From: a virus | DNA length: 64,000 bases | IMG/VR virus record: IMGVR_UViG_3300028654_000001 | Span: 372,001 to 436,000 of that record | Strand: one strand, 5' to 3' | In this document: piece by piece, positions 12,456 to 63,350 of the stretch | Layout of the letters: each line of letters begins with the position of its first letter | Numbering within the stretch: the stretch's first letter is position 1 | Made by a program: the position numbers and the translations under genes | Notes under the pieces: model-generated | The model's database searches: none | Seen by the model: only the letters and a program-made list of their open reading frames with translations | What the model was told of the DNA's origin: nothing

Positions 12456-15400
12456 ATGACTATCGCTGGTATCAAAGTTCTCATAGTTGGAAAACAATTC
12501 GAACTCCCATATGACGTTGTTAATCTAGAGGGTACAGCACACCTACTCGAAACAATTGCCACTTTTAGGCCGGACGTTATAGTCACCTCAGACTACATAC
12601 CTGGATCTCTTACTATGGCTTGTTACGATCTCAGGAAGAGGTGGATCCATATACCCCCTGATGTATCAAATAAAGAACTTTGCGCAAATATTGAGAGTTG
12701 CTACTCTTTCAACATTTGGACAGAGCAGGAGTTTTCAAAAGACCACCCTATGGTCTCGGTCTACACCCCAACCCATGACACTGGAGATTACCTGCAAGAT
12801 ACCTTTCAGTCACTAAGAAGTCAGACCTATGTGAACTGGGAATGGATCGTTGTAGACGACCAATCCTCTGACAAGACCTGGGCTAGACTTCAAGAATTTG
12901 CAGCTCAGGATTACCGGATTAGACCTTTTCAAAGTGGAATACACCTAGGAAAGATCGGAGCTCTCAAAGATCTGACAACCAGACTGTGCAGGGGGAAGTA
13001 CTTAGTTGAGTTAGATCATGACGACATGCTTACGGAAACCGCTCTTGAAGAGGTGAAAAACACCTTCGAGGCCAACCCAGATGTTGGCATGGTCTACACA
13101 AATAGCGCATCATTCTATGAGAACGGGTCCCCTCAACGCTTTAATGGATCCCCTTGGGATGCTCCTGATAGGTATCGTGAAGTCGAGTACCACGGACGAA
13201 AGTATTTAGAGTGCAGCAATCCAAATATTTATGACCGCTTTGGACCTCACTTCACTCAAGTGTTCGGCTGGTTCCTCACGGTAGGCCCTCATCACATCAG
13301 AGCCTTTCGTGCAGAGACCTTTCGTCAACTAGGAGGCTACAACCCAGAGCTCCCCATCGCCGATGATTGGGACCTGTATGCTAGGTTCTTCCTGGAATCC
13401 AAGTGCTTTCACTTGGATAAGCTCCTGTACTTGTACCGATATCGAGACGGATTTGGAAATGTAACGTTCCAACGTCTCCAGTCTATCCAGGATCATTTAG
13501 CCCTAGGCCGAAACCACTATATGGATAAGTTCAAGAATAAGAACGATGAGTTACTAGCTAATCACCCACCCATGGTTCCTAATCCTATCTCAACAAGTGT
13601 TGGAGAGAAGAGCACGTCTGCTGATCTATCCTTCGTTGTCCTTGATGCCACGGGAAGCCAGAATGCCATTGATTGCTTGAAAAGCTTGAGATATTATGCC
13701 CCTGATGCGGAGATCATACTTGTTGAGAACGGTTGTAGGTCAAAAGCTAGCAATGAGGCCAACATAGTTCTTGAGAGTTCTCACAATCTGGGTTTTGGCG
13801 GGGGGTGCAACCTAGGAGCCTGTGCGGCCAATCGTCCGTATCTGTGCTTCATTAATGATGACGCGGTACTCGTGGACACAGTGACCGTCCCGAAGCTTCT
13901 AGACGCTGCCAAGAAAAACTCCATAGCTGGGAGCTACTCGGACAGAGCAAAGCCCCCCCAAGGTGACTGGTCCCATGACTCAGTCCCAAAGGATGACAAG
14001 GCCCTGCCCATGGTAGCCGGGCTCTGCATGGTATTGTCCAAGAGCCTGTTTGACTCCCTAGGTGGTTTTGACCCAAGGTTCATGACGTGGGAAGACGACG
14101 ACTTTTGTGTTAGGGCTGGACGCCTTGGGGTGACCAGCGTGGCTGTAGGAGGGGCCTTCGTACACCACAAGGGCCACCGGACCTTCGAAACTATGAAGTT
14201 GGACCATGTAGCAGTCGAAGCTGAGAACCAGAGACTCTTCAGAGTGAAACACCAGAAGATCAAGGTCATCGCCATTGCCAAGAATGAGGAAAATTGCATT
14301 GTCGAGTTCTTCAAGCAGTTCGAGTCAATCACGAGTAGTTGGTACATGCTTGACACGGGGTCGACGGATAGGACTGTTGAATTAGCCAAGTCTATTGGAG
14401 TAGAGGTAGTCAAAGGTCCATTCACAGACTTTGCAACTACTCGTAACCAAGCTTTGAAGCTATTTGACTCAGAAAATAGCTGGGTCATCATGCTCGACCC
14501 CGACGAACGTTTGGACAAGCGCACCATTGAAGCTATCCCCGAGCTGATCTTCAACAGGCGTATCGTCTCACAGAGCGTATTTGATACCTATCTTGCTCCT
14601 TTGACTGCTGTCTATCCGGATGGGAATAGGAAAGAGTTCGTGGCCAAGCCCTTCCTGTTCAAGAACAACCCTACTTCTAGATGGGTCTTCAAAGTTCATG
14701 AGAAGTGGATCACTAAGGATCATTGCTCGAACTATGGTCAGTGCGCGATAGTCACCAATGCACTCATCGAGCATAGGATTGAGTTTCACACGGGCAAGCA
14801 TCGTGATGGAGCTGAAGGATTGTACTCCAGGTTGATGTCAGAAGAGCCCTACTTTCAAGACTTGGACTACAAGACCCGGATGCGCGAGGAGTTCCCAATA
14901 CTTGACTATGACCGCACTGAGGATCCACGAATAACCAAGATACAAGCAGGGCCCTTAGTCAGCGTAGTGATCCCTACTTACAAGCGAACAGACCTCTTGA
15001 GGAAAGCAGTACTATCCGCTCTGACTCAATCCTACAAGACTCTGGAAGTCATCATTGTTGGAGATCACTGTCCAGAACTGGATTCAGCTGCATTCGGAGA
15101 ATGGCCCTACTCAGAAGAACCTCGAGTTAGAGTTGTCAACTTGGCAAAGAATTACGGAGCTGGTGGTGCAGAGCCTAGAAACGTAGCAATCAATCTAGCC
15201 GCTGGGCCCTACATCGCCTATTTGGACGATGACAACACCTGGGCAAAGGACCACGTGAGCAACTTACTGACTACCATCTTGGCTGAGAACAGTATCTGGG
15301 GTTGGTCGTCGATGATGGTGAACGGGATTGATATGGTGTTTGACCGATTAGAGAAAGGCAAGATCGATACCTCGTGTGTCATTCACCACAAGAGTCTCAT

Positions 15401-16217
15401 ACTAAAACACGGTGGGTGGAAGCCCCGAACCGAAGCGAACTACTGGCATGACTACGAGCTGTTCTCACGTTGGAGAGAGGAGCCTCAAACGGTAACCAGG
15501 TACCCGTCAGTTAACTATAATGCTAGTGCTTCGGGCCAAGGAGCTTTTCTGGCTAGTCTGACCTCTTCAGATCGAGTCACCGACATCCCATTTGAACCCC
15601 TAACTTCCATACCATCAGAACCAAACCTCTTGACCATTGGTATTCTCAGTTTGGAGTTCCGAGCTGAAATGCTAAATAAGTTGCTACAAGAGCTAGAGAG
15701 TCAAAGAAGTGCCCTCCCCTTTCCTGACTCAGTAAGAATCGTAAAAGTGGATACTAGAGAGGCCACTGTTGGTGAAAAACGACAGAAGATCATAAATGAA
15801 TGCAGTACTGAGTATCTATGCTTCGTAGATGACAATGACATGATTGAGCACAATTACCTAAGCTCAATCCTACGAGCTCTCAAAGACAATCCAGACTGTG
15901 TAACCTTCAAAGGCATAATCACCACGGACAGTAAGAACCCAGAGCTATTCCGCTTATCCTTGCATTACTCAATAGGGGCTTGGTCCAAAGATGTTCAGGG
16001 AACTCACATGCGAACCCCCAATCATCTATGTCCAATGAAGGTTAAGTTAATGAGGAGAGTGGCTTATCAGGACATCACTTCATATGAGGATGCTCTCTGG
16101 GGTATGTGGATCTACCCACTATTACACAGCCAGTGTCACATTGACGAAGTTCTTTACCACTACCAGTACAGCCCAACTGGGTCTGAAGCAGCTAAGAAAG
16201 CACCAAAGCTCATGTGA
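12456..16217 (+). CDS. Five-module GT-A glycosyltransferase (family 2-like)
   Basis: This 1253-residue protein has five tandem GT-A-like domains, each with a nucleotide-binding beta strand and an Asp-rich sugar-nucleotide/metal motif. Module 1 is 98-340 (MVSVYTPTHD, ELDHDD at 185-190). Module 2 is 391-598 (INDDA at 466-470, plus EDDDF). Module 3 is 601-790 (AIAKNEENC, LDPDER at 680-685). Module 4 is 833-1010 (VSVVIPTYKR, LDDDN at 923-927). Module 5 is 1056-1250 (FVDDND at 1123-1128). An N-terminal segment 1-95 resembles a short Rossmann-like fold. It probably transfers sugars to virion, host-surface or nucleic-acid acceptors; the substrate is not identifiable. Confidence 0.85.
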   Translation: MTIAGIKVLIVGKQFELPYDVVNLEGTAHLLETIATFRPDVIVTSDYIPGSLTMACYDLRKRWIHIPPDVSNKELCANIESCYSFNIWTEQEFSKDHPMVSVYTPTHDTGDYLQDTFQSLRSQTYVNWEWIVVDDQSSDKTWARLQEFAAQDYRIRPFQSGIHLGKIGALKDLTTRLCRGKYLVELDHDDMLTETALEEVKNTFEANPDVGMVYTNSASFYENGSPQRFNGSPWDAPDRYREVEYHGRKYLECSNPNIYDRFGPHFTQVFGWFLTVGPHHIRAFRAETFRQLGGYNPELPIADDWDLYARFFLESKCFHLDKLLYLYRYRDGFGNVTFQRLQSIQDHLALGRNHYMDKFKNKNDELLANHPPMVPNPISTSVGEKSTSADLSFVVLDATGSQNAIDCLKSLRYYAPDAEIILVENGCRSKASNEANIVLESSHNLGFGGGCNLGACAANRPYLCFINDDAVLVDTVTVPKLLDAAKKNSIAGSYSDRAKPPQGDWSHDSVPKDDKALPMVAGLCMVLSKSLFDSLGGFDPRFMTWEDDDFCVRAGRLGVTSVAVGGAFVHHKGHRTFETMKLDHVAVEAENQRLFRVKHQKIKVIAIAKNEENCIVEFFKQFESITSSWYMLDTGSTDRTVELAKSIGVEVVKGPFTDFATTRNQALKLFDSENSWVIMLDPDERLDKRTIEAIPELIFNRRIVSQSVFDTYLAPLTAVYPDGNRKEFVAKPFLFKNNPTSRWVFKVHEKWITKDHCSNYGQCAIVTNALIEHRIEFHTGKHRDGAEGLYSRLMSEEPYFQDLDYKTRMREEFPILDYDRTEDPRITKIQAGPLVSVVIPTYKRTDLLRKAVLSALTQSYKTLEVIIVGDHCPELDSAAFGEWPYSEEPRVRVVNLAKNYGAGGAEPRNVAINLAAGPYIAYLDDDNTWAKDHVSNLLTTILAENSIWGWSSMMVNGIDMVFDRLEKGKIDTSCVIHHKSLILKHGGWKPRTEANYWHDYELFSRWREEPQTVTRYPSVNYNASASGQGAFLASLTSSDRVTDIPFEPLTSIPSEPNLLTIGILSLEFRAEMLNKLLQELESQRSALPFPDSVRIVKVDTREATVGEKRQKIINECSTEYLCFVDDNDMIEHNYLSSILRALKDNPDCVTFKGIITTDSKNPELFRLSLHYSIGAWSKDVQGTHMRTPNHLCPMKVKLMRRVAYQDITSYEDALWGMWIYPLLHSQCHIDEVLYHYQYSPTGSEAAKKAPKLM

Positions 16218-28109: not shown

Positions 28110-30416
28110 TCAGGTCTTCTTATAACAGCCGTTCAACGTCAGCCGTGTGGTCTTTGAAATAGTCTCAATCCCAAACTTATGACGAAGTTTCCTAATGGCT
28201 ACTTTAGATACGCTATAAAGTTTAGCGATCTGGTCATCACTATTGCGAAGGTATAGGTCTGAAAGAACATCCTTGGTCAACGAATCAAAAGAAAGGCTCC
28301 CAGAGGCCTTGGCACTTCTCTGGGTAAAGCTAATTGTTTGGATCCCCCACCGCTTTCGCTGCTGAGAGATCAAAACATCCGAAGTCCCGAATCTCTTACC
28401 GATCTCAGCATCAGTCATTAATTGGGCCTCGTACAACTCTCTCAAAGCGGCCTCAGTCAACCCAGATACCTTGGTATCACAGGTCTCTTTCTTATTGGGC
28501 TCTTTTGGTAGTTGGTAACAAGGAACCAAACACGTCCCCCCACCCTTCAGAAAGACTAAAATAGGTTCCATTCTATGATGACTACCGAAAGAGCCAAGCT
28601 TCATCTCAAGAGTACCCTCATACTCAAACCCGCACAGCTCGGCCATTCTAATTGACTCACTAACCAAAGGCAGTTGGGATCCATCAACTTGGATATCAGC
28701 CACATTAAGTAGCAGTCTTCCACCTGGGGCCAGACTGTTGAAGGACTTAGCTAGTAGTACAGAGAGAAATCTACTCAACCATAGATCCCAAGTTGGGTAA
28801 CGAACCCAACTCTGAGATGGATCATTGGAGTACCGCTCAACAGAAAAGTACGGAGGGCTAGTGAGAACCAAGTCAGCCTGAATATCACCTAGGTCTACCT
28901 CCTCAATTGGTTGATTGAAGAAAGTTAGGTTGACTCCTAGTAAATCCTGCAACTTTTGAAAAGACTCCCCAGCCTTCGGGTGAGGATCAACCCCAATATA
29001 TCGACGACCTGCTGCCAAAGCTCCGACAGCCCTACCCCCATATCCAGCACAGGGATCCAACACTAAACCACCAACTGAGGAGAAGTCCTCTACCAACCTC
29101 TTAGCAATAGCTGGTCTAAAGTTGGAAGGGGTTCGTACTATAGCTCGAAGTGCTCGAAATACATTCATTGGATACAGAGGGTCCCCAACTTTCAATTGGA
29201 AGTCTACAGCTCTTCGAATCAAGGCGGGGTCAAACCAAGCCCTAGTAAGAGATGGATTCTGTCCGTTGGTCGCTTCAAATCTATGTGGGAAGGCGGCCTG
29301 ACATACTGCTAACCCTACTCGACCACCCCCCTCAATCACCCCGTCACTTACTTTCGCCAAGGTTCTATGGCGTAGATTAGTGAAGTCCCTAACAACCTCA
29401 TCGTCAGAAGGCGGCTCTGGTAGCTTGAGTGAGGTTAGCAACTCAATCAAGGGTTCACCTTGCAACCCAGAATCTACGATACCTTTTGCTTCTTCCCAGG
29501 TAGGAATATACTTCGAGGTGTCTATTACAAAACCTGAACTTTTAACCGATCTTCGTACGGTATCGACCGAAGACCCTGTTGCCTGAGAAATCCACTCTAA
29601 GGATCGACCTTGCTCAACATAGTCACCAAGTTGATCCCTTAGTAAGTCAGCCGAAGATAGACCCCTAGCCCTGGGCACTAGTTCCAACTTATAGCCCATT
29701 GAAGGGGGGATATGAGGGGCTACCAAGTCCAAGAACCTGGTAAGGCTCTCACGATCGTGCAGCCATATATCAGCATCGTTAGTCTTGTAGAGTACAGGTA
29801 CGAGCCCAAACCGTTTCAGGAGTTCGAGTTGAACTTGTTGATCCTCGGGCCTTGGTGAAACAGAAAACCTAACATACCCGTTGGAGGTTTTTGAGCCATC
29901 ATCCAAGAACCAAATGGCCAAAGAGAAGGCATCAAACTCCGCAAGATCTATGTTGGAGAAGGACTTGTTCCCAGAACCATCAGGGTAGGCTTGCTTCCAA
30001 TAGGGGTATAAGTCCCTGGAACTATGCAGAGTCAGGCGAGATCCTGTATAGGTAACCCCATTCTTCACCGTCTTAGCTGGTTTGACTGAGCAAAGATGAT
30101 CGCCCCAAAGGGCGGCTTTCCAAGAGATGTAGTCATGCTGTTGGTCCGAGTGGTATTCACAGAGGCTTGCTGTGCAATCACTGCGAGAGGTGAGCCCAGC
30201 ATCTCCGAGTAGAGAGCCCAAGAGGAGAGTCTTCTGTAGTTGGGTCAGGGGCGGCAACTTCAAACGATCCGACTTTTGAATAGTCTGGATCTGGTACTTC
30301 ATTCTTCGTAGACTCACCTGCCTCTGACTCAACCCATACAACAAACCAATCTTGATCTCGGATAACCCATCATCCAGGTAAAGCCTGCGAAGTTCGGCTT
30401 CAGTGACGTCTGCCAT
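28110..30416 (-). CDS. LAGLIDADG endonuclease-DNA methyltransferase fusion
   Basis: This 768-residue protein has several domains: an N-terminal HTH module (5-50); a LAGLIDADG nuclease with motifs LLLGSLLGDAG (64-74) and SLAIWFLDDGS (165-175); an HTH-like segment (275-300); and an amino-methyltransferase core with motif I LDPCAGYGG (453-461), GVDP (475-478) and the catalytic TSPPY at 519-523. The last is typical of N4-cytosine or N6-adenine DNA methylation. Two C-terminal HTH modules (653-700, 713-758) repeat the N-terminal one. One protein could thus cut unmodified target DNA and methylate its own site. Confidence 0.8.
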   Translation of the reverse strand: MADVTEAELRRLYLDDGLSEIKIGLLYGLSQRQVSLRRMKYQIQTIQKSDRLKLPPLTQLQKTLLLGSLLGDAGLTSRSDCTASLCEYHSDQQHDYISWKAALWGDHLCSVKPAKTVKNGVTYTGSRLTLHSSRDLYPYWKQAYPDGSGNKSFSNIDLAEFDAFSLAIWFLDDGSKTSNGYVRFSVSPRPEDQQVQLELLKRFGLVPVLYKTNDADIWLHDRESLTRFLDLVAPHIPPSMGYKLELVPRARGLSSADLLRDQLGDYVEQGRSLEWISQATGSSVDTVRRSVKSSGFVIDTSKYIPTWEEAKGIVDSGLQGEPLIELLTSLKLPEPPSDDEVVRDFTNLRHRTLAKVSDGVIEGGGRVGLAVCQAAFPHRFEATNGQNPSLTRAWFDPALIRRAVDFQLKVGDPLYPMNVFRALRAIVRTPSNFRPAIAKRLVEDFSSVGGLVLDPCAGYGGRAVGALAAGRRYIGVDPHPKAGESFQKLQDLLGVNLTFFNQPIEEVDLGDIQADLVLTSPPYFSVERYSNDPSQSWVRYPTWDLWLSRFLSVLLAKSFNSLAPGGRLLLNVADIQVDGSQLPLVSESIRMAELCGFEYEGTLEMKLGSFGSHHRMEPILVFLKGGGTCLVPCYQLPKEPNKKETCDTKVSGLTEAALRELYEAQLMTDAEIGKRFGTSDVLISQQRKRWGIQTISFTQRSAKASGSLSFDSLTKDVLSDLYLRNSDDQIAKLYSVSKVAIRKLRHKFGIETISKTTRLTLNGCYKKT

Positions 30417-51685: not shown

Positions 51686-52309
51686 TTAGGTGATTGCATC
51701 CCCACCACGGTTACTCCACTGTGGAAGCGATACCGCTCTTAAGATGTTGAAATTTTTAGAGGCTATAGAGGTGAACACCTTAGCGTACGGTATAAAGCGC
51801 TCGTCTTCTTGAGATTTCTTTTCTAAAGCCCTCACTGCTCCAAAGAAGCGATGCCTAACACGACCTTGAGTTAGGTTGAGCCTGGAAGCGACCTCACTCT
51901 GGCACGTTGTCTCCCACATACCCAACATAATGTCTACGTCTATTGGCTTGAGTGGCACTTCCAACAGACTCTTCCTCATCTCTGTTTCTTCGAGCTGAGG
52001 CATAGACGTTAGAAACTTGATCCTTTGAATCCCCCTATCCAATCTGTAGCTGATAGCCGCTTGGGTAACTCCAAAGTAATGAGCAATACTGGCCTGCCTC
52101 ATCTTATCCTTGAAGTACATCTGAATCAAGTCAGCTTCTCTATCAGGGATCTTAGGGAATAATGGTTCTATCTCGTTCTCGTAACTCATCGAAGCAAGGT
52201 CAGAGTCTGCAGGATCGTCTGGATTCTCCATCTCATAGAAGGGGGATGGATCTGGAAATCGATTGGCTATTTCATAGGGGTCTACCGAAATCAGATAACC
52301 TGTGCTCAT
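51686..52309 (-). CDS. Sigma-factor-like/transcription regulator with two HTH
   Basis: This 207-residue protein contains a sigma-70 region 4-type HTH at about residues 54-95 (IPDREADLIQMYFKDKMRQA, SIAHYFGVTQAAISYRLDRG). A second HTH-like segment at about 130-160 (SEVASRLNLTQGRVRHRFFG) follows. Region 2 is missing or very different, so it may be a promoter-recognition accessory. It lies after the NusG-FEN gene and before the structural genes, where a regulator for late transcription would fit. Confidence 0.65.
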   Translation of the reverse strand: MSTGYLISVDPYEIANRFPDPSPFYEMENPDDPADSDLASMSYENEIEPLFPKIPDREADLIQMYFKDKMRQASIAHYFGVTQAAISYRLDRGIQRIKFLTSMPQLEETEMRKSLLEVPLKPIDVDIMLGMWETTCQSEVASRLNLTQGRVRHRFFGAVRALEKKSQEDERFIPYAKVFTSIASKNFNILRAVSLPQWSNRGGDAIT

Positions 52310-52322
52310 AGATCAAACTCCG

Positions 52323-54194
52323 TCAGCCAGTTTTGGAGAATCCTGGACCGTGTTGTGGGAAGAAAGAACCCATAATTGACTCAGGTTGGATTGAGCACTC
52401 TCTTAGTGAGTTAATAGCCGCGTCGTAATCAGCAGACGCCTCAGTGATTGGACATTCAACATCCTCACATAGAGCCATCAACTTTAGATTCAAACGAGCT
52501 TGCGTCTCAAAAGCACGGATCTTATCATACTGGGCGGTAGTGATACCTGCCAGATTTGAAGAGTATACGCCGTCTAGTGATTCGTAGTTATTCAAGAGTG
52601 ATGCAATCACTTTCCGGGGTATCCTAGCTACTCCGGGCAGGTTGTCTGAGTCATCGCCGATGAATGCTCGCAAGTGGATCATCTTACGAGGAGCGACCCC
52701 ATACTCTAGCACAACCTTGTCAGGGTCGTACAGGGTCTCTGGTCTAGATCCTACCTTGGGAACCAAAACTAAGTCTGTGTATGTGACCAACTGTAAGAAA
52801 TCTCTGTCTGTGGAAACTACGAAGTTGTGAGCTCCTTTCATTTTTACTTTTACTAGGTGAGCTATTAGATCGTCTGTTTCCTCATCGGGGTTATACGCTT
52901 GATTAACCCCAAACGAAGGCAACATACTTCGAAGTCGAAGCATCTCTTCGTGAACCCCTTCAGTGTGAGGCTCCCTAGTTGCCTTGTAATCAGGATAGTC
53001 CTTAACCCTACGTTGCCGAGACCCATCCCACACAACATAGATGTTTGCCTGACTGAAACGTTTTTTGAGAGCAGCAACACTTCGAAGGAATCCAAAAATG
53101 ATTGAGGTTGGACGCCCCTCACTGTCTATAAGTGATCCACCCTGAACGAACCTCAAAGCCTTTTCGGACCTGTAGGCTAGGTTATGCCCGTCGAAAATTA
53201 GATTCTGTACCATACTAGGTTCCCAATCCGGAATAGAACGCTCAATAACCTCAACAGATTCCTGAATCTTATGCAGTCGATCGAAAACAGTCTGAAGGTA
53301 TGCTAGCTGTAGCTCTTTATTATCGAGAGGAGTCATATCCTCTCGCTCGGTAGTGATCCTATACTTGTGAAATATACCCTTGCCCCTATCAAGGAAAGAG
53401 CAGATCTGCTGGTACTTCTGGTATTTTTCTGACAGTGACACCCCGTTCTCATCTATAATTCTATCAGAGGGGGAGGCCGAATCAGTTACAAGTCTAAGAA
53501 GTCGCCTGCCGCTAGAACACCACTTGTCTAACTGCACTATATTACTGAACTTAGTGGAAACTGTATTGATATTTGGGGTCCTACACTCTACGATGGGTGT
53601 AACTTTTCGTGTCCAATCTCTGATTCTGGTAACCTTCGTAATGAAGGGGGAGTGAAAGTACTGCTCATCATCTCCACTTCTTGGAATGTACCTCAATGAG
53701 GTACGCGGTAGAGTCAGCAAGGACTTCTTAGATCTGAGGTTTATGAATACCTGAACGCTACCTGTCTCAGGTATATCCTCAATGACGCGCCCCCTGAGGT
53801 TCTTGTATGGCTCGCTCATGATTACCACATCATCCCCAACCTCGATACCCTGCTCGGTCTCGATGTGGATCTGACGTCTCATCCGATCGATATCCTTGTC
53901 ATAGACACAAGCTAATCTACGAGATATACTGCTAGTAACCGTTAAAACAGAGGATATATATCGAGTACCCTCCATCTTGAGAAACTCAGCATCAGTTAGG
54001 TCACGCCTAACGAACACATAATTGTCAATCAGCTTGTGAACAACACGGGATCCACCAGGAACCTTTACTACCGAAGCGGGGATGAAGAACTCCTTACCCT
54101 TAACCATTCGATTAAGGGACTTATGAAGAACATCAGGGTCTTCATCCTCACCTTGAGGGTTTAGCTCTAGTACTACCCATTCAGTTGTTGCCAC
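52323..54194 (-). CDS. NusG-like (NGN-KOW) fused to FEN/FLAP nuclease
   Basis: This 623-residue protein starts at the GTG at 54194, 5 bases after GGAAGAGG; the longer frame to 54284 would overlap the clamp-loader gene too far. Residues 3-105 have the NGN-type fold of NusG (TEWVVLELN, IDNYVFVRRD) and residues 117-145 a KOW-like VGDDVVIMSEPYKNLRGRV. From about 330 is a FLAP/5' nuclease: IFDGHNLAYR (Asp335), VWDGSR, DEETDDLI, STDRDFLQL and IGDDSDNLPGV hold the acidic cluster. Such a nuclease removes RNA primers and flaps. Confidence 0.8.
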   Translation of the reverse strand: MATTEWVVLELNPQGEDEDPDVLHKSLNRMVKGKEFFIPASVVKVPGGSRVVHKLIDNYVFVRRDLTDAEFLKMEGTRYISSVLTVTSSISRRLACVYDKDIDRMRRQIHIETEQGIEVGDDVVIMSEPYKNLRGRVIEDIPETGSVQVFINLRSKKSLLTLPRTSLRYIPRSGDDEQYFHSPFITKVTRIRDWTRKVTPIVECRTPNINTVSTKFSNIVQLDKWCSSGRRLLRLVTDSASPSDRIIDENGVSLSEKYQKYQQICSFLDRGKGIFHKYRITTEREDMTPLDNKELQLAYLQTVFDRLHKIQESVEVIERSIPDWEPSMVQNLIFDGHNLAYRSEKALRFVQGGSLIDSEGRPTSIIFGFLRSVAALKKRFSQANIYVVWDGSRQRRVKDYPDYKATREPHTEGVHEEMLRLRSMLPSFGVNQAYNPDEETDDLIAHLVKVKMKGAHNFVVSTDRDFLQLVTYTDLVLVPKVGSRPETLYDPDKVVLEYGVAPRKMIHLRAFIGDDSDNLPGVARIPRKVIASLLNNYESLDGVYSSNLAGITTAQYDKIRAFETQARLNLKLMALCEDVECPITEASADYDAAINSLRECSIQPESIMGSFFPQHGPGFSKTG

Positions 54195-55626
54195 CAGCAC
54201 CTCTTCCAATCCAGATTCCTTCAAACTCCCTACGCCAATCGGATGGTGGGATGGGAGCTCTTCCATCCCTTGACTTAGTGTCAAAACTGATCGGTTTCTG
54301 CTTCCTACTCTGAGTAGGAAGTTCTTCAGGGATCACAGCCGTGTCATTCTCTGTAAGGGCCTGCATATCTCTTGAACCTAAGTTACCTTTCCCATCCTTC
54401 CGTAGCCCCTCCATGTCTTGTTCAATCGGAGGCGGGACTAAAGTTGTAGTTCTGATGGGTTTGGTTACTTCTACAGTAGGTTCTATAGGAGTGACATTTG
54501 GTTGTGTTTGTGGGGTAGCTGTTTGGACGAAAGTACTGACTGCGATAGTTTGGGTTACTTCTTGTTGGACTTGACGAGTAATAGGCCCTGACCTAAGTCT
54601 TTGATTCAGGGTGGTTATATCACAGATTAGTCCGATCTGTGTTGTATAGCGAGATTTGAGGAAGTGCTCTGCAATAGAAGTTAATCCAGTGCTGTACAGC
54701 TCACTGACTTTTGCGCTAAGTTCTTTGTCTGCGAATGTAAAATCAGCATTCATACCGTTAGCAAGACGAAATGAATTCATTGCAGCCTCAGCAAGACCTG
54801 AAGCTGCTTCCTCAGGGGTGATTCGCTCGCAGACAGAATCAACTAGAGATAGTGCTTGCTTGAGATTAGAGGGTATGTTGAGTAGGATCTCGTAATAAGT
54901 GCTAACTACGGAAAGGTTAAGGTGTTCCCTGACATTAGCCACCTTAACAGGACCCACCTGGGCTATCATCTCCAAGCGGTTCACCACATCTCGTACGTGA
55001 CCCCCAGAGAAGTCTATTACTATGAGTATGGCATCATCCTCATACTCGACCTTCTCCGCTTCAAGGATCCGTTTCATGCGGACAAGGATGTCTTCTCGAG
55101 TCACCCGACGTATCGAATACTCCTCGCACCTAGAGCGAATAGCACCACGAACCTTCTCAGGTTCAGTAGTGCAGAACATACCAAGCATCTTCCTCTCTTC
55201 AAGAGGTTTCAGAAGAACGTCTTGGGCATCCTTCGACATACGATGGCATTCATCGAATAGATAGATCCTCTTCGCTGCCCCCATCACCGTAAATGGTAGC
55301 TCATCGACGATCCTTCTAATTTGTTCTATGTTACCCTGACTAGCTGCATCCTGCTCCACGAAAACCATGGAAGTGTCATTCAAGATCGATAGACAACTCT
55401 CACACGTGTTACACGGTTCTGGGTTATTCTTATCCAGGTTGTGGCAGAGCATTGCCCGTGCAAAGATTCTTGCGAGAGTTGTCTTACCTTGCCCAGATCC
55501 ACCACTGAATATGTAACTAGTGTCGAGAGCGGTCCCGTTCCTCAACCTCGCTTTAAGGAGTTGAACAGTCCCGGTCTGACCTAGTACATCAGAGAAAATC
55601 AAAGGACGATGAGAGGTGTCCCACAT
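54181..55626 (-). CDS. dnaX: DNA polymerase III clamp-loader subunit (gamma/tau type)
   Basis: This 481-residue AAA+ clamp loader has Walker A GGSGQGKTT (42-50), a zinc site of Cys61, 72, 75 and 78, Walker B IYLFDEC (121-127), sensor-type CTTE near 152, and the SRC arginine finger (165-167). It opens and loads the clamp made by the dnaN-like gene upstream. The C-terminal part beyond about residue 350 is Pro/Thr-rich. It is followed by the NusG-FEN gene with a short overlap. Confidence 0.85.
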   Translation of the reverse strand: MWDTSHRPLIFSDVLGQTGTVQLLKARLRNGTALDTSYIFSGGSGQGKTTLARIFARAMLCHNLDKNNPEPCNTCESCLSILNDTSMVFVEQDAASQGNIEQIRRIVDELPFTVMGAAKRIYLFDECHRMSKDAQDVLLKPLEERKMLGMFCTTEPEKVRGAIRSRCEEYSIRRVTREDILVRMKRILEAEKVEYEDDAILIVIDFSGGHVRDVVNRLEMIAQVGPVKVANVREHLNLSVVSTYYEILLNIPSNLKQALSLVDSVCERITPEEAASGLAEAAMNSFRLANGMNADFTFADKELSAKVSELYSTGLTSIAEHFLKSRYTTQIGLICDITTLNQRLRSGPITRQVQQEVTQTIAVSTFVQTATPQTQPNVTPIEPTVEVTKPIRTTTLVPPPIEQDMEGLRKDGKGNLGSRDMQALTENDTAVIPEELPTQSRKQKPISFDTKSRDGRAPIPPSDWRREFEGIWIGRGAGGNN

Positions 55627-60291: not shown

Positions 60292-61257
60292 CTAATCATC
60301 AGACCCAAGGGTTAACTCTGTTACACCTTCCGGAAGGTTTAAGCGGGCCCTTCGACGATACTTTTGAATCTCCTTCTGTCCATCTTCACAAAGTGGTACA
60401 AAAGGGCACAGAGTGCAGTTATGACTTGGTTGAGCAGGAAACAATTCCTGCCGGAGCTCATCATGAGATTGCGGGGTATCCTCAATAGATTCCAACTTAC
60501 GAACTGACTGGTCAATCCTGGCCAACACTGAAAGAACCTCAGTTTGTAAGTTATCGAGGTCTTTCTCTGAAAATGGAATCCATTCTATGGCCTCTTCACC
60601 GCTAAACCTCCAGAATATGTAGCCTAGCTTATCGGGAATGATCTTACGTTTGGCACGGTATAATACCGCGTACCACTTCAGTTGGACCCCCTCAGCCTTC
60701 TCACCCTTCTTCAGCGGCTGACCATCAACGTATTTGTCCCGATGCTTTGACCCCTTACCGTCAAGAATCACCAAGTCGTTGTATGGAGGAACCCTCTGAA
60801 TGACAAAGTCTGATCTACCACCCATAATATAAGAACCAAACTTAGAGTCAAGTTTGAGTTCTGGCTCCATTCGCGGCCCAACAAGCCTATTATGGCGAAT
60901 TGTTTGGAGACCTACAGGGATTGTAGCATACAAGTCATTTAGAATCTCATCTTTGCTGTGGTAGTTGGCCTTCTCATCTGGCCAGTCAATGATACGACCC
61001 TTCTTAGTGGTATCCGCTATAGCAGCATCGAGATGAGGTTGAGCAAGATTTTGCAGTTTACCAGCACAATCGGAGTCTCTCCACAATCTATCTCGGTAGA
61101 ATGACTCAAAGAGTGTGCCTATTGCTGAACCATATAGAGCATTGATCCCATTCTCCGGCTCTGGTGGAGTAGCTTTCACCACATATTTATTCCAGTATGA
61201 GTATGGGCATTTCCTCTCCGTACTGAAACCAGAGTAGGATATATAATTGATGCTCAT
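60292..61257 (-). CDS. PD-(D/E)XK nuclease, Cas4/RecB-like with Fe-S motif
   Basis: This 321-residue exonuclease has a Cys17 and a C-terminal NCTLCPFVPLC, four Cys residues in the layout of a 4Fe-4S cluster. The PD-(D/E)XK core includes GGRSDFVIQ and LVILDGKGS (Asp-x-Lys). This is the fold of Cas4 and AddB/RecB-type nucleases, which trim DNA ends. The gene lies next to SbcD, so they likely form one end-processing system. No CRISPR is seen. Confidence 0.8.
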   Translation of the reverse strand: MSINYISYSGFSTERKCPYSYWNKYVVKATPPEPENGINALYGSAIGTLFESFYRDRLWRDSDCAGKLQNLAQPHLDAAIADTTKKGRIIDWPDEKANYHSKDEILNDLYATIPVGLQTIRHNRLVGPRMEPELKLDSKFGSYIMGGRSDFVIQRVPPYNDLVILDGKGSKHRDKYVDGQPLKKGEKAEGVQLKWYAVLYRAKRKIIPDKLGYIFWRFSGEEAIEWIPFSEKDLDNLQTEVLSVLARIDQSVRKLESIEDTPQSHDELRQELFPAQPSHNCTLCPFVPLCEDGQKEIQKYRRRARLNLPEGVTELTLGSDD

Positions 61258-63350
61258 CCGACCTCAGCTTGCTCTAGATACTTCATGGCCTCACTACGAA
61301 CATCATCAGCAAAGTCCAATGATGCTATGCTAGACTCGATGGATGCATTGGGATCCATTGCCAAGTCAGTCACGAGTCTAGTCACAAATTGATCTATATC
61401 GTGGTGCTCACGTTCTTGAAGGGCTTTCTTATCCAGGTCAAAAACATCGGCAGCAGGGGCCACAATCAACTTGGAAATGCTTACCTTGATAGTCTGACCA
61501 TCAAACTCGAGAAGGGATACTTGCGGGGTTCTCTCAAGATTCTCTCGTACCAAGGCCCCCCTAGAGACAGCCCCTTGATTGACAAAATACTTCCCACCAA
61601 TCTCCTCTATACCTTGATCTTTATGCCAATGTCCAAAGCAATTATGAACAAGAATACCTCCTGCAAGATACTCACCAGTGGAGGTTCTGAAGTTATGAAC
61701 TAGCCCTTTGTAGGGGGTTCTAGATACACTGCGAACTCGAACATAATACAACCCGTCAGAAAAGAAACCAGCTACTTTAGTCTTTGATCGATCTGGGGGT
61801 ATGATACCCATTCTATTTGACAGGGACTCTCCATCATCTCCATAGAACGAGATAACTTGACAAGGATGGTATCCATCTTTTTGTGGAGGTCTAACTGTGA
61901 AGTAAGGTCGGAGTCCAATAGACAGAGCTAGAAAGAAAATCTGAAATCCAAGAGTAATTGATACAGTAGCCCCCATTACTTCAGTTCTAGTTTTTCGTGC
62001 GTGACCATCCCCAAGCAGCCAGCCAACTAAGAACTCTAAGCGATCTATAGCTGATCTATTCCAGATCCAAGACGATAGACTCTTCTGATCAGAAAAACGC
62101 CCACTGTGTTCGAGGAAGAAATCAGAAACTTCTTTTCCATAAGCGCATACTTGAACACAAGACCCACTAGTCTTATGGGTATGAGTTTCAAGACCAAAGT
62201 GTTCACTCACTAATAGACGAACATCCTCATGTAGGTCTACTTCATCCTCATGAAAACTCCAAGCCACTCCAGCTACAGGAACCTTTTCTCTATTCTCTAT
62301 GATGTGCCCCTCTGCTGCGTAGTAACCCAAAAGCCTAGCTAACCCTGAGTATGAAGCTGAATCATTCGGAATCTGTGGAACAGGAATTGCCAGATAATCA
62401 CCAATACTAACACTTCCCGCTCTAACCCAAGAAGCTCTAACCTCAGGAGCATTAGGACATACCGAACATGGGTATGAAGAGACTGGCTTATCAGGATGAC
62501 ACCTACGTGTAGATCGAGAGGGTACTAAACACCGCATACCCGTAGCAACCCAGTAAGGGTGTTCAGAGGTTACCCCTAAGACTACAGGTGGGACTCCTTC
62601 CACATCAAAAGATATAAGATCTTCGTCTACCAATCTAGAAGGGTGGACACACTCAACACTATTACTTGGGTCTCTTCCAACAACAATAGTACCCCCCACA
62701 ACCTTCTCAATCAATATAGGCCGATACAGAGAATCTAATACGGGGGTACCTGATGGAAAGCACCACACATCGGGACCATTACGGCTCACGAGGGACTCGT
62801 AAGAGAAAACAGGCTCGTTCCAGAAGTCCTCAACAGCAGAGGGTGGAGTCTTGCAGGCTAGGGCGTGCACAATAGCAACAAGATGAGTGTCACCCTTCTG
62901 CTTCTGGATGCTCAGGAGATCAGCCAAAGAGCGGGTTGAACTGTATGGAACCCCAACCACTCGAACCCGAAGGTCCCCATCCTCAAAGACTTGCTCCCGG
63001 AGAAGCTTAAAGGCGTCACTCGCATAGATCACCCCCAGAGGCTGCTTGGCTAAGCTCTCCAAGTTGTTGTATGCTAAGTCATGATTACCCTCAACTCCGA
63101 AGGTTGGGCACCGGTAACCTCTATGGATTCGTATTGTTCTTTCAACAAGGTGATGCGGATTCTTAGAGGAAGCCTTGACGTGAAAGTAGTCTCCTCCATC
63201 AAGAACTGCATTCACCTCATACTTGGCTGCCAGACCACCGATCTGCTCTAGGTTAGAGAATATCTCTGCTGTATAATCCCCCTTCCACGAAATTGGGCTG
63301 TGAGCTGCCAAGTGAGTGTCTGTTCTGAACAAGAATGAGATCCTAGGCAT
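61254..63350 (-). CDS. sbcD: SbcD/Mre11 exonuclease containing an intein
   Basis: This 698-residue precursor has calcineurin-type phosphoesterase motifs: RTDTHL (residues 9-14), LDGGDYF (50-56), EGNHD (87-91), IVHAL (160-164) and, after the intein, GHWH (573-576). After removal of the intein (residues 197-570) the mature protein is 324 residues. The enzyme, together with SbcC, cuts hairpins and DNA ends. It overlaps the SbcC-like gene by 8 bp. Confidence 0.85.
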   Translation of the reverse strand: MPRISFLFRTDTHLAAHSPISWKGDYTAEIFSNLEQIGGLAAKYEVNAVLDGGDYFHVKASSKNPHHLVERTIRIHRGYRCPTFGVEGNHDLAYNNLESLAKQPLGVIYASDAFKLLREQVFEDGDLRVRVVGVPYSSTRSLADLLSIQKQKGDTHLVAIVHALACKTPPSAVEDFWNEPVFSYESLVSRNGPDVWCFPSGTPVLDSLYRPILIEKVVGGTIVVGRDPSNSVECVHPSRLVDEDLISFDVEGVPPVVLGVTSEHPYWVATGMRCLVPSRSTRRCHPDKPVSSYPCSVCPNAPEVRASWVRAGSVSIGDYLAIPVPQIPNDSASYSGLARLLGYYAAEGHIIENREKVPVAGVAWSFHEDEVDLHEDVRLLVSEHFGLETHTHKTSGSCVQVCAYGKEVSDFFLEHSGRFSDQKSLSSWIWNRSAIDRLEFLVGWLLGDGHARKTRTEVMGATVSITLGFQIFFLALSIGLRPYFTVRPPQKDGYHPCQVISFYGDDGESLSNRMGIIPPDRSKTKVAGFFSDGLYYVRVRSVSRTPYKGLVHNFRTSTGEYLAGGILVHNCFGHWHKDQGIEEIGGKYFVNQGAVSRGALVRENLERTPQVSLLEFDGQTIKVSISKLIVAPAADVFDLDKKALQEREHHDIDQFVTRLVTDLAMDPNASIESSIASLDFADDVRSEAMKYLEQAEVG
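61641..62762 (-). mobile_element. Intein in SbcD, with LAGLIDADG nuclease
   Basis: This 374-residue intein begins with Cys197 (CFPSGTPVLD) and ends at Asn570 in GGILVHN, followed by Cys571 as the +1 residue. It has block B T261-x-x-H264 and LAGLIDADG motifs LLGYYAAEGHI (340-350) and LVGWLLGDGHA (441-451). Cys274, Cys284, Cys295 and Cys298 could bind a zinc ion. It sits exactly before the active-site GHWH of the host protein. Confidence 0.85.

Follow-up and report, generated by a model that had tools for sequence, protein, structure and literature searches.

A recurrent fusion of NusG-family and FEN nuclease domains in a conserved viral transcription–replication gene cluster

Introduction

We know of only one transcription factor family, NusG/Spt5, that is conserved in all domains of life. 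Through its NGN domain, NusG contacts the clamp of RNA polymerase during elongation, and the NusG/Spt5 family serves as a hub that couples transcription to other processes; in bacteria it includes specialised paralogues, such as RfaH, LoaP and UpxY. A review of the NusG family mentions phages, and the words ‘fused’ and ‘fusion’ are absent from it (PMC7819879). Our searches of the open-licence literature for NusG with a flap endonuclease (FEN) in phage, or for NusG in jumbo or huge phages, returned nothing relevant; nor did we find, in that literature, a covalent coupling of NusG/Spt5 to a replication nuclease or any earlier description of a NusG–FEN fusion.

As the closest parallel in logic to the locus described below we would suggest, by analogy, the late-transcription system of phage T4 (gp33, gp55, gp45; dsbA). 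The T4 rnh gene (RNase H) presumably adjoins dsbA and 33. T4 late transcription uses the host polymerase and is coupled to replication via the sliding clamp; there is also translational coupling between dsbA and 33 (PMC2988020). In T4, phage proteins thus connect host RNA polymerase with the replication machinery, and adjoining genes are translationally coupled; our locus would resemble it in both respects. The T4 system differs in that coupling proceeds via the sliding clamp and promoter initiation, through separate small proteins, with neither NusG nor a nuclease fusion.

The NusG–FEN fusion that we report here is a real, recurrent and apparently undescribed domain architecture, and it lies in a conserved transcription–replication gene cluster. 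Like bacterial NusG/Spt5 proteins, it has an NGN followed by a KOW domain, with profile and fold similarity over both; unlike them, it is phage-encoded and divergent (below the curated cut-off), and it is extended by a helical linker and a nuclease. The nuclease resembles the discrete FENs (M. smegmatis FEN 6c33, ExoIX, B. subtilis FEN) and the 5' nuclease of Pol I in having the whole domain, nine carboxylates and the YK motif, but it is attached to NusG, and neither stands alone nor precedes a polymerase. Discrete FENs cleave flaps and RNA–DNA hybrids, as described for B. subtilis FEN (PMC10191290).

Results

Domain architecture of the fusion protein

The stretch of DNA that we analysed, hereafter the window, comprises 64,000 nucleotides and corresponds to bases 372001–436000 of a 512,571-base IMG/VR virus record. 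The fusion gene (Table 1) is read without an internal stop over 623 residues. Its GTG lies at position 54194, with GGAAGAGG immediately 5' of it, and the gene shares 14 nt with the end of the clamp-loader gene. The protein was modelled with AlphaFold2 (AF2) from a 60-row alignment, with a mean pLDDT of 84.9. The initial annotation had described a two-part protein, NusG followed by FEN; both parts stand, but this layout left out a helical linker of about 150 residues between them. A short C-terminal tail extends beyond the FEN domain.

Table 1. Features of the fusion locus, in window coordinates
Feature	Position	Strand	Size or place	Basis
NusG–linker–FEN fusion gene	52323..54194	-	623 aa, GTG start, stop included	ORF translation, Pfam, AF2 model
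NusG part	53685..54194	-	residues 1–170 (NGN ~1–118, KOW 121–170)	PF02357, TIGR00922, NusG structures by profile, AF2, Foldseek
Linker	53205..53684	-	residues 171–330	AF2 model, alignment
5'-3' exonuclease/FEN domain	52362..53204	-	residues 331–611	PF02739, PF01367, catalytic columns, structure comparison
Clamp-loader (DnaX-like) gene	54181..55626	-	upstream neighbour wherever the locus extends that far	
Sigma-region-4-like protein gene	51686..52309	-	downstream neighbour in all three architectures	

The assignment of the N-terminal part to NGN and KOW, made initially from the sequence, is borne out both by domain libraries and by a profile of 38 relatives compared with the PDB. With the fusion protein alone, Pfam NusG (PF02357) matches residues 6–106 at E = 5.7e-4, which is modest single-sequence evidence; in a genome-level search the match reaches E = 1.2e-5, above the family cut-off. 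NCBIfam nusG (TIGR00922) matches residues 1–173 at E = 8.7e-8, and its score of about 30 bits (32) lies far below the cut-off of 135.7 for the housekeeping NusG equivalog. Judged by sequence, the N-terminal part is a member of the NusG superfamily, and not a NusG orthologue by the NCBI cut-off. The 38-relative profile aligns with T. maritima NusG over positions 3–172, nearly its whole length (E = 1.9e-11), with the bacterial NusG 8ehq_G (E = 1.9e-8), and with E. coli NusG over 6–160 (E = 1.1e-5). Furthermore, 37 of the 38 relatives match phrog_6386, a transcription antiterminator family.

Structure prediction, which had been proposed as a check, likewise yields a NusG-like N-terminal part by AF2, Foldseek and profile alike. 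Both NGN and KOW are modelled confidently, with pLDDT mostly 85–97 in the NGN domain, and a Foldseek search with the model retrieves NusG chains, including NusG of a lambda-N antitermination complex (6gov_G, E = 5.7e-8). The domain that follows NGN in the model is beta-rich, as well as being covered by the T. maritima alignment, and matches to the KOW family PF00467 are present in fused relatives. Thus, both of the domains that mark the NusG/Spt5 family were found. The VIA-align structure list is taken up by FENs, and so says little about this part of the protein.

The C-terminal part had been read as a FEN/FLAP nuclease with an intact acidic cluster, and every line of evidence agrees. The resolvase-like N-terminal domain (PF02739, E = 5.5e-28) and the SAM-fold C-terminal domain (PF01367, E = 5.4e-15) of 5'-3' exonucleases are both present, and structure comparison with M. 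smegmatis FEN (6c33) gives Z = 29.8 and 2.5 Å over 282 residues. All nine metal-binding carboxylates are kept (D335, D390, E439, D441, D442, D463, D465, D514 and D517); this set, together with the YK motif, is complete in all 17 fused entries checked, and it is nearly complete in the separate FENs described below, which have a few substitutions.

Fused members share a C-terminal [ED]xxLxxFF motif, which we considered, and rejected, as a PIP-box or other clamp-binding motif: it coincides with the helix that ends the 5' nuclease domain (605–611 in the AF2 model), and we take SLLHEFG of Taq to be its counterpart. Separate FENs of type B loci (e.g. L023, L048, L052 and L070) carry a conserved tail resembling PxDWLxDI past the nuclease domain, and fused members are without it; from its sequence, this tail is perhaps a partner-binding peptide.

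Between the two domains, AF2 predicts a linker that is helical for most of residues 184–320, at a pLDDT of about 50–74. According to the alignment, the linker evolves several times faster than either the NusG or the FEN domain.

Recurrence and evolution of the fusion

Three scans, for which the sigma-like neighbour, the NusG part and the whole fusion served in turn as query, yielded 24 further IMG/VR contigs, from 24 metagenomes, that carry the complete fusion. Together with the window these make 25 contigs, each with a single continuous frame over the junction; they hold 22 distinct fusion sequences, and there is one partial contig besides. Twelve aligned fusion proteins are 36–53% identical to that of the window. 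A single-sequence viral scan returned nothing, and the relatives came through alignments.

In trees built with the fused members from the first two scans (sigma-like neighbour and NusG part), these form one clade, both for NusG (support 100/99) and for FEN (98/96). The nearest FEN outside this clade belongs to the separate pair of L045. In a combined tree, the members from the third scan join the same fused group (93.8/90). For those close pairs whose synonymous sites are not saturated, dN/dS is approximately 0.03–0.09 for both halves, a range that points to strong purifying selection on each.

L112 and L114, which nest within the fused clade, are split, each having NusG–linker and FEN as separate ORFs, so that the linker stays on the NusG side. 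The split in L114 falls at an ATGA overlap and looks, from the sequence, like a true fission; that in L112 coincides with a stretch of seven A and may reflect an artefactual frameshift.

Among named phages, a nucleotide search found no close relatives, and a protein search found FEN-only matches and no fusion. A search of named phages with the N-terminal part found one NusG relative, LR745208.1, which is without FEN. No fusion was found in cellular genomes, where a contig scan matched the FEN part only.

Gene order and genome context

The NusG and FEN genes occur in three architectures (fused, separate, and NusG alone), and the order dnaX, nusG, (fen), sigma-like is common to all three. More distant relatives, on 32 contigs, have nusG and fen as two adjoining genes, which usually overlap or abut: on 27 of these contigs a possible start codon for FEN falls between −14 and +20 nt relative to the nusG stop, and on 13 there is a 4-nt stop–start overlap. 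Adjacent genes that appear to be co-translated in one lineage, and fused in another, are a classic sign of functional linkage. The initial annotation held that relatives with separate parts might expose the join as an error; because the arrangement is conserved and adjacent, these relatives suggest a functional link instead.

NusG stands alone at 32 loci (type C), a count that includes repeats of one contig and near-identical copies. Those type C records that were searched over their full length, LR745208.1 among them, yielded no FEN. At many loci nusG overlaps the clamp-loader gene. The sigma-region-4-like protein, whose model was built on two sequences, has two HTH matches, an ETTCQSE motif shared with the LR745208.1 relative, and relatives on 71 viral loci. 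The DE-CH box of the LR745208.1 DnaX protein (L003, 3161–5047) contains an insert resembling an intein (CFTEDAQLV...ILVSN before CH), which the DnaX of the window lacks.

The fusion is the sole NusG and the sole FEN found in the 512-kb genome; a search for a second copy of either in that genome found none. Neither RNA polymerase beta nor beta' had a match in the same record, and 17 related records yielded no beta; we therefore reject a phage-encoded RNA polymerase as partner of the NusG part. RNase HI was found in none of 17 records, the fusion's own included. Absences in the fusion's own record are provisional, because that record may be incomplete at its ends. The DNA polymerase is of family A, and its reading frame lies about 125 kb from the fusion.

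Several other genes have composite matches. The family A DNA polymerase match at G000:C1:296443-298908, outside the window, is broken by about 1.26 kb within one 1422-aa frame, in an intein-like manner, and a 485-kb genome (G003) has a 1763-aa frame with two breaks of this kind. Within the window, an SbcD-like metallophosphoesterase (61254–63350, minus strand) has a LAGLIDADG match at residues 337–394, probably an intein; a 768-aa ORF (28110–30416, minus strand) mixes DNA methyltransferase, HNH and LAGLIDADG matches; and a 1253-aa protein (12456–16217, plus strand) carries several glycosyltransferase-type matches on one chain.

Discussion

We tentatively favour, at somewhat less than even confidence, the reading that the gene product is a NusG-family elongation factor that carries a phage FEN on host RNA polymerase, where the binding, the tether and the substrate are what we infer. 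Its NGN domain would engage host RNA polymerase in the fashion of NusG, and the helical linker and FEN would follow behind, upstream of the elongating enzyme. In this way the nuclease would reach phage DNA that is being transcribed, and could there remove RNA or DNA 5' ends on the template (primers, hybrids, flaps), so that phage transcription would be coupled with lagging-strand maturation.

Host RNA polymerase is the likely partner because no phage polymerase was detected and a sigma-like gene adjoins; conversely, use of the host enzyme fits both the undetected beta/beta' and this neighbour. Primers, hybrids and flaps on transcribed DNA are candidate substrates because discrete FENs cleave flaps and RNA–DNA hybrids. 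Three considerations temper this reading. Contact with RNA polymerase is not assured, since the NusG part is far from host NusG (below the TIGR00922 cut-off); the covalent join is not strictly needed, since L112 and L114 are split within the fused clade; and, against a tether, NusG holds its position in type C relatives, where no FEN was found. Away from RNA polymerase, the fusion probably also performs ordinary Okazaki-fragment processing, as we would expect of the only FEN found in the genome. The initial annotation did not consider this role; the jobs that it proposed for a nuclease tied to RNA polymerase, clearing R-loops or transcript-primed origins, are conjectural. We think it unlikely that it is a dedicated co-transcriptional nuclease, that is, that a NusG-type factor holds FEN on elongating host RNA polymerase to process RNA–DNA hybrids or transcript-derived primers, with the polymerase forming part of the replication apparatus.

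It is nearly as likely as the tether that the chain merely co-expresses two independent activities, a NusG antiterminator or elongation factor and a FEN Okazaki nuclease, with no functional coupling at the polymerase. Adjacent, co-translated genes would then have fused because both products are required simultaneously and in set amounts. The translational coupling of adjacent nusG and fen in relatives agrees with this, as do the split members L112 and L114 within the fused clade and the rapid evolution of the linker, which is what a passive spacer would show; and with only one FEN and no RNase HI found, and a distant family A DNA polymerase, the nuclease would be needed for ordinary replication. 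Independence leaves unexplained, however, why FEN adjoins nusG in every sampled FEN-bearing relative (relatives were sampled via the gene cluster, which may under-count FENs located elsewhere), and why the fusion persists over a deep clade without frequent break-up.

Quite improbable, in our view, is a third reading in which NGN–KOW is an adaptor to a partner other than RNA polymerase (the phage clamp loader, the clamp or a nucleic acid) and brings FEN to the replisome. The position of nusG after the clamp-loader gene, with overlap at many loci, would suit such an adaptor, and KOW domains occur in ribosomal proteins as well; but the sigma-like neighbour and the pairing of NGN with KOW indicate transcription, and the stand-alone NusG of type C loci has no FEN to recruit. 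Lastly, we give practically no credence to the join being a sequencing, assembly or frameshift artefact, as the existence of separate-gene relatives might suggest, since the recurrence of a continuous frame in 24 assemblies other than the window's refutes it.

The fused and the neighbouring-gene forms, taken together, hint that transcription and DNA replication are physically linked, in a way that seems not to have been described. If the tether works, it would offer a simple, testable case of a virus that places a nuclease on RNA polymerase in order to resolve transcription–replication encounters or RNA primers. Even if only co-expression is involved, the clamp loader–NusG–FEN–sigma-like cluster characterises a large and poorly described group of huge phages, in which transcription and replication genes are kept together as one unit.
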